Assembly: GCA_003661385.1 (NCBI GenBank)
Contig: QMWA01000065.1
Coordinates: forward strand, 1 to 8,505
Direction: 5' to 3'
Length of the DNA stretch: 8,505 nt
Source of the DNA: Thermoproteota archaeon
Lineage (GTDB): Archaea > Korarchaeota > Korarchaeia > B14-G2
A program made the translations under genes and the position numbers. Below, piece after piece: positions 3,836-6,999 of the stretch. The notes under the pieces are model-generated. The model was given only the letters and a program-made list of their open reading frames with translations. It was not told where the DNA came from and searched no databases. The first letter of the stretch is position 1; the number at the start of each line of letters is the position of its first letter.

Positions 3836-4804
3836 ATGAAGGCTGCTATCATAGTGCATGGTGGAGCAGGGTGGGTTGAGCTGAGCCGAGAGGAGGCTGA
3901 GGAGAGGCTTGAGGTCATCAGAGAGAGCATCAGGGCAGGGCTCAGGGCTCTGAGGTCAGGTGGGAGCTCACTGGATGCTGTCGAGGCGGCTGTGAGGGTT
4001 ATGGAGGACTCGCCGCTGTTCAACGCTGGATTAGGGTCTTCTCTGAACTACATGGGGGAGGTTGAGATGGATGCCAGCATAATGGATGGCAGCACGCTGA
4101 AGGCTGGTGCAGTAGCCTGTGTCAGGAGGGTCAAGAACCCTGTTTCACTCGCTAGGCTGGTCATGGAGAGGACTCCACACGTGCTGCTTGCCGGGGAGTG
4201 GGCTGACAAGCTGGCTAAGGAGGCTGGGCTTGAGCTAGCTGACCTCAAGACTGAGAGGGCAGTGAGGAAGTGGAGGAAGGCCATGGAGAAGGCTAGGGAG
4301 TACGGGTTCACTTGGGCTCTCAGGATAAGGGAGCTTCTCGAGGAGTACCCTGGGCGCGCTGGGACTGTTGGAGCTGTAGCAGTGGACTCTCAGGGGAGGG
4401 TTGCAGCTGCAACCTCGACTGGAGGCCTCATACTGAGGATGCCTGGCAGGATAGGGGACACACCGCTGATAGGCTGTGGAACCTATGCTGACTTGGCTGG
4501 AGGCTGCTCTGCTACCGGCGTCGGGGAGGCTGCTATCAGGGTGTGCCTTGCTAAGAGCGTGGTTGACTTGATGAGCCGTGGGCTGAGCCCTAAGTCAGCT
4601 GCGTCAGCTGCCTTGGAGTACATGAAGAAGAGGACTGGACTTGACTGCGGCGTGGTGTGCTTGAGCAGCCTTGGGGAGCTTGCTGCAGTGCACACCACAC
4701 CTTACATGCTGTGGGGGCGTGGTGATGTTGAGGCTGGGGTAGCTGAGGCATCTCTAGCTGGTGTGAGGCTAGAGGTGCCCTCTGAGGAGAAGCGAGAACA
4801 CTAG
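3836..4804 (+). CDS. Plant-type L-asparaginase / isoaspartyl aminopeptidase (Ntn hydrolase)
   Basis: Hydrolyses L-asparagine and/or beta-aspartyl (isoaspartyl) dipeptides. The latter activity recycles aspartate residues damaged by heat, which suits a thermophile. The 322-residue precursor starts KAAIIVHGGAGW (2-13), has the LDAVEAAVRVMEDSPLFNAGLGSSL block (46-70), then the autoprocessing site G176-T177 in GTVGAVAVD. T177 becomes the N-terminal nucleophile of the beta subunit. The following ATSTGG (192-197) and RIGDTPLIGCGTYAD (205-219) are the standard substrate-pocket segments. Length matches bacterial IaaA. ATG at 3836 follows GGAGGGGGTGG (3821-3831), the strongest Shine-Dalgarno-like sequence in the window, although the TATA position would put that site at or before the transcript start. 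The last 36 bases overlap the 3' end of the convergent exchanger gene. The asparaginase versus isoaspartyl peptidase balance cannot be told from sequence. Confidence 0.92.
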   Translation: MKAAIIVHGGAGWVELSREEAEERLEVIRESIRAGLRALRSGGSSLDAVEAAVRVMEDSPLFNAGLGSSLNYMGEVEMDASIMDGSTLKAGAVACVRRVKNPVSLARLVMERTPHVLLAGEWADKLAKEAGLELADLKTERAVRKWRKAMEKAREYGFTWALRIRELLEEYPGRAGTVGAVAVDSQGRVAAATSTGGLILRMPGRIGDTPLIGCGTYADLAGGCSATGVGEAAIRVCLAKSVVDLMSRGLSPKSAASAALEYMKKRTGLDCGVVCLSSLGELAAVHTTPYMLWGRGDVEAGVAEASLAGVRLEVPSEEKREH

Positions 4805-5839
4805 GAGCTGCACGAGTAGGACCATGACGCCCTCGTATAGGTCTAGCTTGCCGTCGTCGACCATGCTTCTCTTGAGGAACCACAGGGAGCCTGCAGCTAC
4901 CATGAGCTGGAACACCACGTACTCGTCTAGTGCTATGGGTATGAAGACTCCTATCCCACCTAGGATCAAGAGGAGCGACTGGGTGAGGCCTGAGACCAGG
5001 TTCCCGAGGCTGAAGCTGAGAGCCCCCTTTGAGGCCTGTACTATGGCTATCATGTGCTCAGGTATGCTCCCCAGGCCTCCTATGACTACTCCACCGAGGA
5101 CTACTGGGCTTACTCCAGCCACCTCCTCTAGGTGCAGGAAGCCCTCTACTGTGTCTACTATGAGCTCGCTTCCAGCAGCTATCCCAGCGAAGCCGGCTGC
5201 AGCAAGCGCTATGCTGTGCCTAAGCTCCTTGCCCTCTGCTCCATGCCCTTCTCTGCCTTCCCTAAGCATGAACACCACGTAGGCTATGTAGGATGCGACT
5301 AGGAGGGCTGCTGCCTCCCTAGGCAGCATCTTCAGAGCTCCTCCAGGTGGGATCGATGAAACTGCCCCCAGGGCTGATATGAGGAGCATTGCAACTATCG
5401 AGAACCTCATGAGCTCTAGTTCGTGCGCTAGAGCCTCAGGTGGCGTCGGGATGCTTCTCCTGCCTCTGGTGCTCAGCACTATCACTGCACCGAGCAGCAT
5501 CATGTTGAAGCCTATGGCGCTCAGGATGGAGAGGACAGCTAAGTCGACCATCTGGGGGACGCCTTTCACGACACCTGTGTAAGCTGCTCTGCTGCTCATT
5601 ACTATCTCAGGGAGGTTTGATGCTAGGCTGCTTAGGACTCCTGCGGTGTAGCTGCTGAACCCTAGTGCCAGCCCCAGGCTCTCCATCCCCTCTGCAGCCC
5701 ACTCCGAAGGCCTGTAGACCAGCCAGCAGCCTAGGGCTAGCGCAGCAGCTGCTGTAAGCCACTTCACCCCAGCTAGCCTGGCTGCAGCGTAGAGAGCTGC
5801 TAGAGCTAGAGGCCAGGCTAGCTCTCTCATGCTGCTCAT
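4769..5839 (-). CDS. Sodium/calcium exchanger family (CaCA) membrane antiporter
   Basis: A membrane protein of about 10-11 helices, predicted to exchange Ca2+ or another cation for Na+ or H+ across the cytoplasmic membrane. The two inverted alpha repeats are visible. Alpha-1 lies around residues 50-120, with the ion-binding glutamate E78 in SLASNLPEIVMSS and a FN pair (111-112). Alpha-2 lies around 240-295, with GGLGSIPEHMIAIVQ (E261) and SLGNLVSGLTQS (278-289). A hydrophilic loop with charged LREGREGHGAEGKELRH (192-208) separates the halves. The repeats are divergent: the usual G(T/N)S(L/I)PE is NLPE and SIPE, and the usual GNxxGSNIFN is replaced. Ion specificity is therefore open. ATG at 5839 is chosen; ATG at 5830 is an alternative. 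There is no ribosome binding site, but an AT-rich element about 20-30 bases upstream suggests a leaderless message. Its 3' end overlaps the asparaginase gene by 36 bases. Confidence 0.85.
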   Translation of the reverse strand: MSSMRELAWPLALAALYAAARLAGVKWLTAAAALALGCWLVYRPSEWAAEGMESLGLALGFSSYTAGVLSSLASNLPEIVMSSRAAYTGVVKGVPQMVDLAVLSILSAIGFNMMLLGAVIVLSTRGRRSIPTPPEALAHELELMRFSIVAMLLISALGAVSSIPPGGALKMLPREAAALLVASYIAYVVFMLREGREGHGAEGKELRHSIALAAAGFAGIAAGSELIVDTVEGFLHLEEVAGVSPVVLGGVVIGGLGSIPEHMIAIVQASKGALSFSLGNLVSGLTQSLLLILGGIGVFIPIALDEYVVFQLMVAAGSLWFLKRSMVDDGKLDLYEGVMVLLVQLLVFSLLLRGHL

Positions 5840-5896: not shown

Positions 5897-6478
5897 TTAG
5901 AACAGGCTGTCAGCTGAACTCCTGTAGTATATTGTGCTGGGGCATGCTCTGCACTTGTTGCTGGCGTAGCGCTCACAGTTCTTGCATACTGCTCCACAGG
6001 GTGCTTTCTCTCGGGATCTGCTTGCCAGGTTGACCCTGACTGGCAGGTATGGGGAGTAGTATATCTCTCCTATAGGATAGAACTCTGATCTCCTTACTCC
6101 AGGCTGGCTTCTTATGGAGCAGACCTCCAGGGACTCGCTTTCCAGCGTGCTGAGGTCTTCAGCTACAGTCATGACCAGCATGTTGTAGCCTCCTATTGTG
6201 GAGCACACGTAGACGACCCTAGGGCACTTCTTGAACTTCTCTAGTATTCTCTTCATTGCAGCTGAGCTGTTTACCTCGAGCAGGAGGATTGCAGCGTATG
6301 CCTTCGCCTTCTTCACGTTGACTAGCGCGGATACCTTTATCATACCGCTCTTCAGGAGCTTGTCCAGCCTCTTCTTTGCTCCCATGCTTGTGAATCCGAG
6401 TATCTCTCCTATCTTCTTCAGGCTAGCTCTCCCGTTTTCCTGCAGAGCTGCAACTACCTTCCGGTCTATCTCATCCAT
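5897..6478 (-). CDS. Lrp/AsnC-family transcription regulator with C-terminal cysteine cluster
   Basis: A 193-residue DNA-binding regulator, about 50 residues longer than a normal Lrp. Residues 1-48 are the AsnC-type helix-turn-helix (DEIDRKVVAALQENGRASLKKIGEIL, then the recognition helix TSMGAKKRLDKLLKSGMIK). Residues about 58-135 form a RAM-like ligand-binding/oligomerisation domain, with CSTIGGYNMLVMTVAED matching the GxxD/YDxx turn. The tail beyond 150 has C161, C165, C168, C176 and C179 (C-x3-C-x2-C-x7-C-x2-C, CGAVCKNCERY...CRACPS). That spacing suits zinc or a [4Fe-4S] cluster, so metal or redox control is inferred; C85, C92 and C120 are extra. ATG at 6478 has GGTG (6487-6484) five bases upstream, and this site overlaps the stop of the preceding lrp (TAAGGTG). 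The two genes should be cotranscribed and translationally coupled. I recall similar tails in other archaeal regulators but cannot name the target genes. Confidence 0.87.
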   Translation of the reverse strand: MDEIDRKVVAALQENGRASLKKIGEILGFTSMGAKKRLDKLLKSGMIKVSALVNVKKAKAYAAILLLEVNSSAAMKRILEKFKKCPRVVYVCSTIGGYNMLVMTVAEDLSTLESESLEVCSIRSQPGVRRSEFYPIGEIYYSPYLPVRVNLASRSREKAPCGAVCKNCERYASNKCRACPSTIYYRSSADSLF

Positions 6479-6487
6479 GGCTACACC

Positions 6488-6910
6488 TTACTTTATCCTC
6501 TCTAGGACTATGCTCGTGTAGACTTTTGTGATGCCGTCTATCTTGCCGTACTTCTGGCATATGAGCTTGCTCAGCTCCTCTCCGCTCCTAGCCCAGACCT
6601 CAGCTACGAGGGTGTGGCTTCCGCTGCATATCAGGACTCTCTTGACCTCGTCGAACTCAGACAGCTTCTTCGCCACGTCTATGTTCTTCTCTGGCGTGGT
6701 GTCGAAGCCGAGGATTGCAATGACGGAGTAGCCGAGCTTAGCTGGGTCCTCTATGACAGTGTACTTCCTTATCACCCCGTTCTCCTCCATCCTCCTGAGC
6801 CTCTTCCTGACGTTTGACTCGCTTATCCCGAGCTTCTTAGCTATCTCAGCTATGGTGGCCCTGGAGTTCTCCTCTAGGATCCTCAGGATGTCGAGGTCTC
6901 TCTTATCCAC
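6488..6910 (-). CDS. Lrp/AsnC-family transcription regulator
   Basis: A standard-size (140 residues) archaeal Lrp regulator that binds DNA as a dimer or higher oligomer and usually senses amino acids. Seen: an N-terminal helix-turn-helix (MDKRDLDILRILEENSR, then IAEIAKKLGISESNVRKRLRRMEENGVIRKY, residues 21-50), a linker strand EDPAKLGYSVIAILGF (54-69), and a RAM domain with the ligand-turn region CSGSHTLVAEVWARSGEEL (94-112). All normal elements are present, unlike the cysteine-tailed partner downstream. The start is GTG at 6910, directly after GGTGGTGGT (6919-6911) on the coding strand; an ATG at 6923 is out of frame. Two copies of TTTATAC lie upstream and may serve as promoter and operator. 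It is the first gene of the two-regulator unit. Autoregulation is common in this family and is inferred here, not shown. Confidence 0.9.
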   Translation of the reverse strand: MDKRDLDILRILEENSRATIAEIAKKLGISESNVRKRLRRMEENGVIRKYTVIEDPAKLGYSVIAILGFDTTPEKNIDVAKKLSEFDEVKRVLICSGSHTLVAEVWARSGEELSKLICQKYGKIDGITKVYTSIVLERIK

Positions 6911-6926
6911 ACCACCACCATTTACA

Positions 6927-6948
6927 GTATAAACCTAATTGGTATAAA
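6927..6948 (-). promoter_or_regulatory. Duplicated TATA-like element upstream of the Lrp pair
   Basis: On the minus strand TTTATAC occurs twice, at 6948-6942 and 6933-6927, 15 bases apart. The distal copy would place the transcript start near 6919, giving a short leader containing GGTGGTGGT. The proximal copy lies about 20 bases from the GTG, slightly close for a TATA box. The proximal repeat is also part of TTTA-CAGTA-TAAA (plus strand, 6921-6933), a possible regulator half-site pair. One copy may be the promoter and the other an operator or alternative promoter. Confidence 0.45.
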
Positions 6949-6999
6949 GATGTTTCTAAAAGCAACTGGCAGCTGGCGCTTGAGCTGTGAAGCTGGAGC

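Follow-up and report, generated by a model that had tools for sequence, protein, structure and literature searches.

The closest architectural precedent for the protein described here is CopR of Pyrococcus furiosus (PF0739), an archaeal regulator in which an Lrp-type DNA-binding part is followed by a metal-sensing, cysteine-containing C-terminal tail (PMC7830388). The gene for CopR is divergent from its target, and the protein has been proposed to be an octamer (PMC7830388). The closest working precedent is SufR (Synechocystis; Rv1460 in M. tuberculosis), a cysteine-containing, autoregulated and often divergent repressor encoded beside Fe-S assembly genes, with two DNA sites and an O2-sensitive Fe-S cluster (PMC6034842). 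In fold, the nearest relatives are archaeal Lrp proteins of the LrpA/FL11/PH0140 type (2cyy, 7fby, 9w4v), whose palindromic operators lie two or three turns apart, the three-turn spacing between Lrp sites being established (PMC2995911). How Fe-S assembly is regulated, and how oxygen is responded to, is little known in uncultured anaerobic archaea, Asgard archaea included.

The window studied here is an entire contig of 8,505 bp from a draft genome of 1.74 Mb, and encodes an Lrp-family regulator with a cysteine tail. It resembles CopR in architecture, and the divergent arrangement and proposed octamer of CopR may be a further likeness; however, its cysteine motif and spacing are different, its signature includes two cysteines of the RAM domain (C85 and C120), and the genes that it is predicted to control belong to Fe-S, sulfur and redox functions rather than copper export. 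SufR, in contrast, has a non-Lrp scaffold and a different cysteine layout, and the present family was found in archaeal genomes only, bacteria not having been searched systematically. Proteins of the LrpA/FL11/PH0140 type share the fold but lack the tail, C85 and C120, and their known members respond to amino acids.

Domain structure of the regulator

The open reading frame encodes 193 amino acids counted from its ATG, within a stop-to-stop frame of 196. Its features are as follows.

5897–6478, minus strand: Lrp/AsnC-family regulator with a seven-cysteine signature, 193 residues (open reading frame, Pfam, alignment)
6326–6478, minus strand: AsnC-type winged helix-turn-helix, residues 1–51 (Pfam PF13404/PF13412; AlphaFold helices 3–14, 20–27 and 31–43)
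6053–6298, minus strand: RAM ligand-binding/oligomerization domain, residues 61–142 (Pfam PF01037; structural match to archaeal Lrp, Z 12–14)
6224–6226, minus strand: codon of C85, in a CPR motif (goes with the tail; missing from tail-less paralogues)
6119–6121, minus strand: codon of C120, in a C-x2-R motif (goes with the tail; missing from tail-less paralogues)
5924–6010, minus strand: C-terminal cluster, residues 157–185, PCG-x2-C-x2-C-x-[RK]-[YF]-x4-C-x-[GA]-C-P-x4-Y (alignment; AlphaFold pLDDT 92–93 for residues 161–180)

The first-pass annotation had described a normal helix-turn-helix and a RAM-like domain, and Pfam detects both: the N-terminal winged helix-turn-helix as PF13404 (9.3e-11, 41.8 bits against a cut-off of 27) and the RAM domain as AsnC_trans_reg, PF01037 (9e-6, 25.9 bits against a cut-off of 25). 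PADLOC gave a match at the level of the helix-turn-helix only. Cysteines occur at positions 85, 92, 120, 161, 165, 168, 176 and 179, the last five of which form the tail that follows the RAM domain, C161-x3-C165-x2-C168-x7-C176-x2-C179, with exactly the spacing previously reported. Lrp proteins had also rightly been said to end normally after the RAM domain, as typical examples in the PDB stop at about 140–170 residues and have no tail.

No Pfam or NCBIfam family gave an accepted match to the window tail. Pieces of the tail gave matches below threshold to CIAPIN1, DUF6171, FeoB-associated, Fer4_6 and Lipase, which were set aside as chance. The TRASH motif is C-x19-22-C-x3-C; the spacing here is 3, 2, 7, 2, and Pfam reports no such domain in the protein. 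Nor did the SufR model of NCBIfam (TIGR02702) match it at any value up to E = 1. The first cysteines of DUF3795 (PF12675), CG-x2-C-x2-C-x-x-Y, resemble the start of the tail, and four of six tails gave weak matches to this profile (best E 0.008, 14–17 bits against 22.6, positions 2–19 of 83). However, the profile did not match the window tail, the gathering score was not reached, and DUF3795 is a longer domain, only 16–18 residues of which align, and has no Lrp part. By these tests the protein is a member of the Lrp/AsnC (FFRP) family, and is not a SufR, TRASH or DUF3795 protein.

The AlphaFold model of the full-length protein has a mean pLDDT of 90, and residues 1–149 match solved archaeal Lrp structures with Z of approximately 14 and 27% identity. 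The PDB matches to the full model span residues 1–152 only, except for weak matches to NirDL that reach residues 168–169. Modeling of the tail had been suggested as a check on it, with a divided outcome: the tail core (residues 161–180) is well ordered in the full-length model, at pLDDT 92–93, whereas the tail modeled in isolation reaches just 71. A Foldseek search of the PDB with the isolated tail gave no match at E ≤ 10, which is not evidence of a novel fold.

Conservation and distribution

Across 86 distinct homologues, C85, C161, C165, C176 and C179 are 100% conserved, C168 is 98.8% conserved and C120 91.9% conserved, and the motif is therefore beyond chance. C92 lies outside the conserved signature. 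The 24 relatives that were aligned have in common R17, C85-P86-R87, C120, R123, R129, P160, the five tail cysteines, P180 and Y185, whereas 14 tail-less Lrp proteins from the same search are all without C85 and C120. Because these two residues are absent from the tail-less paralogues and are kept with the tail, the signature consists of seven cysteines, not five, and because two RAM-domain cysteines accompany it, the C-terminal cluster is not a lone add-on. The first-pass annotation was thus right to single out a five-cysteine tail, which is conserved in relatives, and overlooked C85 and C120. It had also proposed a search for such tails on AsnC-family proteins across archaea; many tailed relatives were found, with their cysteines conserved.

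At set E-value cut-offs, the window's own phylum has tailed relatives in about 20 of its 29 genomes; the count is 74 of the 397 genomes sampled from the phylum that contains the Bathyarchaeota (that of the metagenome-assembled genome G031), and 82 of 214 for an Asgard-centered phylum (that of an Asgard-labeled metagenome-assembled genome). In a tree of 43 rows, the window protein clusters with Bathyarchaeal sequences (support 97/85) and apart from the other proteins of its own phylum, a placement that suggests either lateral transfer or an old paralogue. One genome of the Asgard-centered phylum (G643) has seven matches to the tailed family, which suggests either a local expansion or a mixed bin. 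The tail was also considered as a free-standing domain. The one short match, a 49-residue frame in G011 (L182, contig C4 near 640231), proved to be a decayed, frame-shifted relative and not a domain on its own; this genome belongs to the window's class, and no intact copy of the regulator was found in it.

A search of the openly accessible literature gave no account of this regulator family, which is widespread and apparently undescribed.

Predicted operator

The upstream regions of tailed regulators share a 15-bp palindrome, GTTTA-N5-TAAAC; other branches appear to have GTTTC or GTTAC arms. In its more general form, GTT-N9-AAC, the palindrome precedes 26 of the 46 regulators examined, where 0.44 would be expected. 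Promoters of the Bathyarchaeal type have two copies exactly 31 bp apart, with the TATA box between them. The window has such a pair in front of the operon that contains the regulator, with a spacing of 32 bp and imperfect halves.

6952–6966, minus strand: predicted operator half 1, GTTGCTTTTAGAAAC, 32 bp upstream of half 2 (read as 6966–6952; the window's only match to GTT-N9-AAC)
6941–6949, minus strand: TATA-like box CTTTATACC, between the operator halves (read from the sequence)
6920–6934, minus strand: predicted operator half 2, GTTTATACTGTAAAT, between the TATA-like box and the start codon (read as 6934–6920; one mismatch to GTTTANNNNNTAAAC)

A pair of this type did not occur in 300 shuffled windows, and arose once when the 90 bp between the genes were shuffled 5,000 times. 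Two 15-bp palindromes at 31–32 bp appear to follow the pattern expected of Lrp proteins, namely operators spaced by whole helical turns, and autoregulation.

The pair is strongly associated with the presence of the regulator. Among the 397 genomes of the Bathyarchaeota-containing phylum, the 31-bp pair with at most one mismatch is found in 23 of 74 carriers and in none of 323 non-carriers (p = 7e-19); with at most two mismatches, the numbers are 30 of 74 and 4 of 323. Fewer than half of the carriers have the pair in the form searched. A reversed-pattern control showed no association (2/74 against 6/323).

The window locus

The genes immediately around the regulator are as follows.

6488–6910, minus strand: LrpA-like regulator without a tail, first gene of an apparent two-regulator operon, with a gap of 9 bp (open reading frame, family profiles)
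4769–5839, minus strand: CaCA-family cation exchanger, 57 bp downstream of the regulator, possibly co-transcribed, not a conserved partner (Pfam, neighborhoods)

The operon thus encodes two Lrp paralogues, which might form mixed oligomers. A type-2 asparaginase gene (3836–4804) converges on the CaCA exchanger gene, and its end overlaps with it. This setting differs from that of other tailed loci. The redox-related neighbors named in the first-pass annotation are roughly as described: OsmC was confirmed, and the gene given as of 4-hydroxybutyryl-CoA dehydratase type encodes, at the edge of the contig, a truncated protein with an HpaB C-terminal domain. A conserved partnership of OsmC or HpaB with the regulator was not borne out, and OsmC was dropped as a functional partner, being within three genes in just 2 of 43 tailed loci.

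Gene neighborhoods of tailed relatives

We read 40 further regions of 10–18 kb, together with control regions around tail-less Lrp genes. At least one of Mrp/NBP35 (PF10609), Nitro_FeMo-Co (PF02579), TSUP (PF01925), DGC (PF08859), SufC/SufB and rhodanese, all confirmed as families, lies within three genes of the regulator in 34 of 43 tailed loci, as against 3 of 20 tail-less controls (p = 3e-6, to be read with the knowledge that the families were picked after inspection of the loci and that the genomes, being related, do not count as independent). ABC ATPases of another kind may account for some of the SufC matches that lie three genes off. The Fe-S or sulfur gene is most often divergent, at position −1. 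Individual loci include a regulator–sufC–sufB run (L102), a regulator–sufC pair (L108), and regulators that adjoin genes for a prismane/hybrid-cluster-type protein (L103), a ferredoxin-like protein (L104) and hydrogenases (L088 and L105), the last two kinds named by eye from the sequence.

Two further genes recur in these regions. A metallo-β-lactamase-fold gene lies at +1 on the same strand, often overlapping, in 14 loci (L088, L090–L098, L118, L121, L125 and L023); a radical-SAM-like protein follows it at +2 in six loci of the Bathyarchaeal type (L090, L091 and L093–L096).

Carriers of the regulator are poor in terminal oxidases. Among the same 397 genomes, COX1, of the haem-copper oxidases, is encoded by 2 of the 74 carriers, as opposed to 167 of the 323 non-carriers (p = 2e-17). 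The near-absence of COX1 fits an anaerobic life, although the contrast is confounded by phylogeny, because many of the oxidase-bearing genomes probably come from a few aerobic clades.

Predicted regulon

Operator pairs were also found away from the regulator, some of them with the criterion relaxed to as many as three mismatches. Such unlinked pairs stand 31–68 bp before Nitro_FeMo-Co (nifX-like) genes (L208, L269, L271 and L273), Mrp genes (L272, L274 and L277; there is also an Mrp pair in L095), peroxiredoxin genes (L273, L275, L276 and L277), a gene for a CoA-disulfide-reductase-like flavoprotein (L270) and a methyltransferase gene (L275), and 183 bp before metK (L274). In the genome of the window, the only exact single site (contig C188 of G000, 2803–2817; L191, 1501) falls between divergent heterodisulfide reductase genes, 48 bp upstream of hdrCB and 173 bp upstream of hdrA. 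Single sites with one mismatch were tried as a route to the regulon of this genome and proved unusable: there are 22, against 17 for the reversed control, and the regulon therefore cannot be defined there beyond the promoter pair and hdr. In another genome (G267), a short distance upstream of a GTTTATATCCTAAAC site, is a DUF3795-like protein (L227:2327–2818), recognized by eye from APCGMNCGVCKAYLAYS..., whose first cysteines are similar to those of the regulator's tail.

The target list matches, as far as sequence can tell, what would be expected of Fe-S repair and of peroxide or disulfide stress.

Discussion

What was computed directly is the assignment to a protein family, the conservation of the cysteines, the pair of palindromes flanking a TATA box, the restriction of the pair to carriers and the identity of the genes behind it. 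On this basis we propose, with a probability of roughly 0.6, that the protein is an autoregulated Lrp/AsnC regulator that uses its seven cysteines to sense the state of the anaerobic archaeal cell with respect to redox, Fe-S or sulfur. It is a probable redox or Fe-S sensor because the genes beside its predicted site handle Fe-S clusters, sulfur and peroxide. The best explanation is that it acts in the manner of SufR and IscR, on an unrelated Lrp scaffold.

The regulator itself would bind the palindrome, as paired dimers or as an octamer on one face of the DNA, and, bound over the TATA box and start site, would act mainly as a repressor. The C-x3-C-x2-C-x7-C-x2-C motif, perhaps helped by C85 or C120 from the same subunit or an adjacent one, would most likely hold an Fe-S cluster that is oxygen-labile, or else zinc. 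If the cluster were lost or oxidized, DNA binding would change and there would be more Mrp/NBP35 Fe-S carriers, Nitro_FeMo-Co proteins, peroxiredoxin, disulfide reductase and sulfur transport. The switch would be the state of the cysteine-bound cofactor or of the thiols. The metal- or Fe-S-dependent redox regulator proposed by the first-pass annotation is backed indirectly by the cysteines, which rank among the best-conserved residues of the protein, by the scarcity of oxidases in carriers and by the Fe-S, sulfur and redox genes of the regulon and neighborhoods.

We infer that the tail holds an Fe-S cluster in preference to zinc or bare thiols. Over zinc it is favored because so many cysteines are invariant, the targets include Fe-S carriers and Nitro_FeMo-Co proteins, and the distribution is anaerobic, none of which amounts to proof. 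The main alternative, that the two CxxC knuckles bind zinc in a structural or a regulatory role while the protein senses zinc or a ligand of the RAM domain such as an amino acid, has in its favor that CxxC-x7-CxxC is a normal zinc-knuckle spacing and that the tail, a short one, is predicted to be ordered when the whole protein is modeled; cysteine tails of the zinc-knuckle kind can be purely structural. We nevertheless consider it unlikely, as five conserved tail cysteines plus C85 and C120 exceed the needs of a zinc site, the predicted regulon comprises Fe-S, sulfur and peroxide genes rather than zinc transport, and the carriers are mostly without terminal oxidases.

TauE and rhodanese genes accompany known persulfide sensors, and genes for TSUP (TauE/SafE), rhodanese, DGC, CoA-disulfide-reductase-like and peroxiredoxin proteins are neighbors or operator targets here. 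The cysteines could on these grounds be metal-free and form disulfides or persulfides, sensing reactive sulfur, peroxide or disulfide stress as CstR, BigR and SqrR do. Such a thiol switch seems to us improbable to much the same degree, because spacing as strict as C-x3-C-x2-C-x7-C-x2-C typically serves to ligate a metal or a cluster, and the commonest targets, Mrp/NBP35 and Nitro_FeMo-Co, indicate cluster trafficking.

Still less probable is an ordinary amino-acid-responsive Lrp whose cysteine tail merely stabilizes the fold. The helix-turn-helix and RAM domains are indeed normal, and the nearest solved structures include amino-acid complexes (9w4v, 9w4w), but C85 and C120 are conserved jointly with the tail, and the predicted regulon is without amino-acid biosynthesis genes, except for metK. 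The first-pass annotation had allowed for amino-acid sensing by the regulator, a suggestion to which we found no evidence connecting the protein. A sensor of copper or other heavy metals, on the model of CopR as an archaeal Lrp-type octamer with a C-terminal metal-sensing (TRASH) domain, is very improbable, given a tail spacing unlike that of TRASH, recurrent neighbors among which no copper ATPase or chaperone was seen, and operator targets that are Fe-S and peroxide genes.

For the Fe-S and redox sensor that we prefer, a bolder formulation is that these are the first Fe-S regulators of the Lrp family: widespread proteins of anaerobic archaea (of the window's phylum, the Bathyarchaeota-containing phylum and Asgard archaea) that sense cluster status by seven cysteines and control, through paired GTTTA-N5-TAAAC sites, a conserved regulon made up of genes for Fe-S carriers, Nitro_FeMo-Co proteins, peroxiredoxin and disulfide reductase, in the role that belongs to IscR or SufR in bacteria. 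This we hold tentatively, as a little short of an even chance.

The analysis supplies a candidate regulator, seven key residues, a probable operator and a list of target genes, and makes the protein a candidate archaeal counterpart of IscR and SufR. If this is true, the Lrp scaffold would have been put to use in redox or Fe-S sensing on a path separate from that of IscR and SufR, and the palindrome motif could be used to predict redox regulons in the genomes of as yet uncultured archaea.
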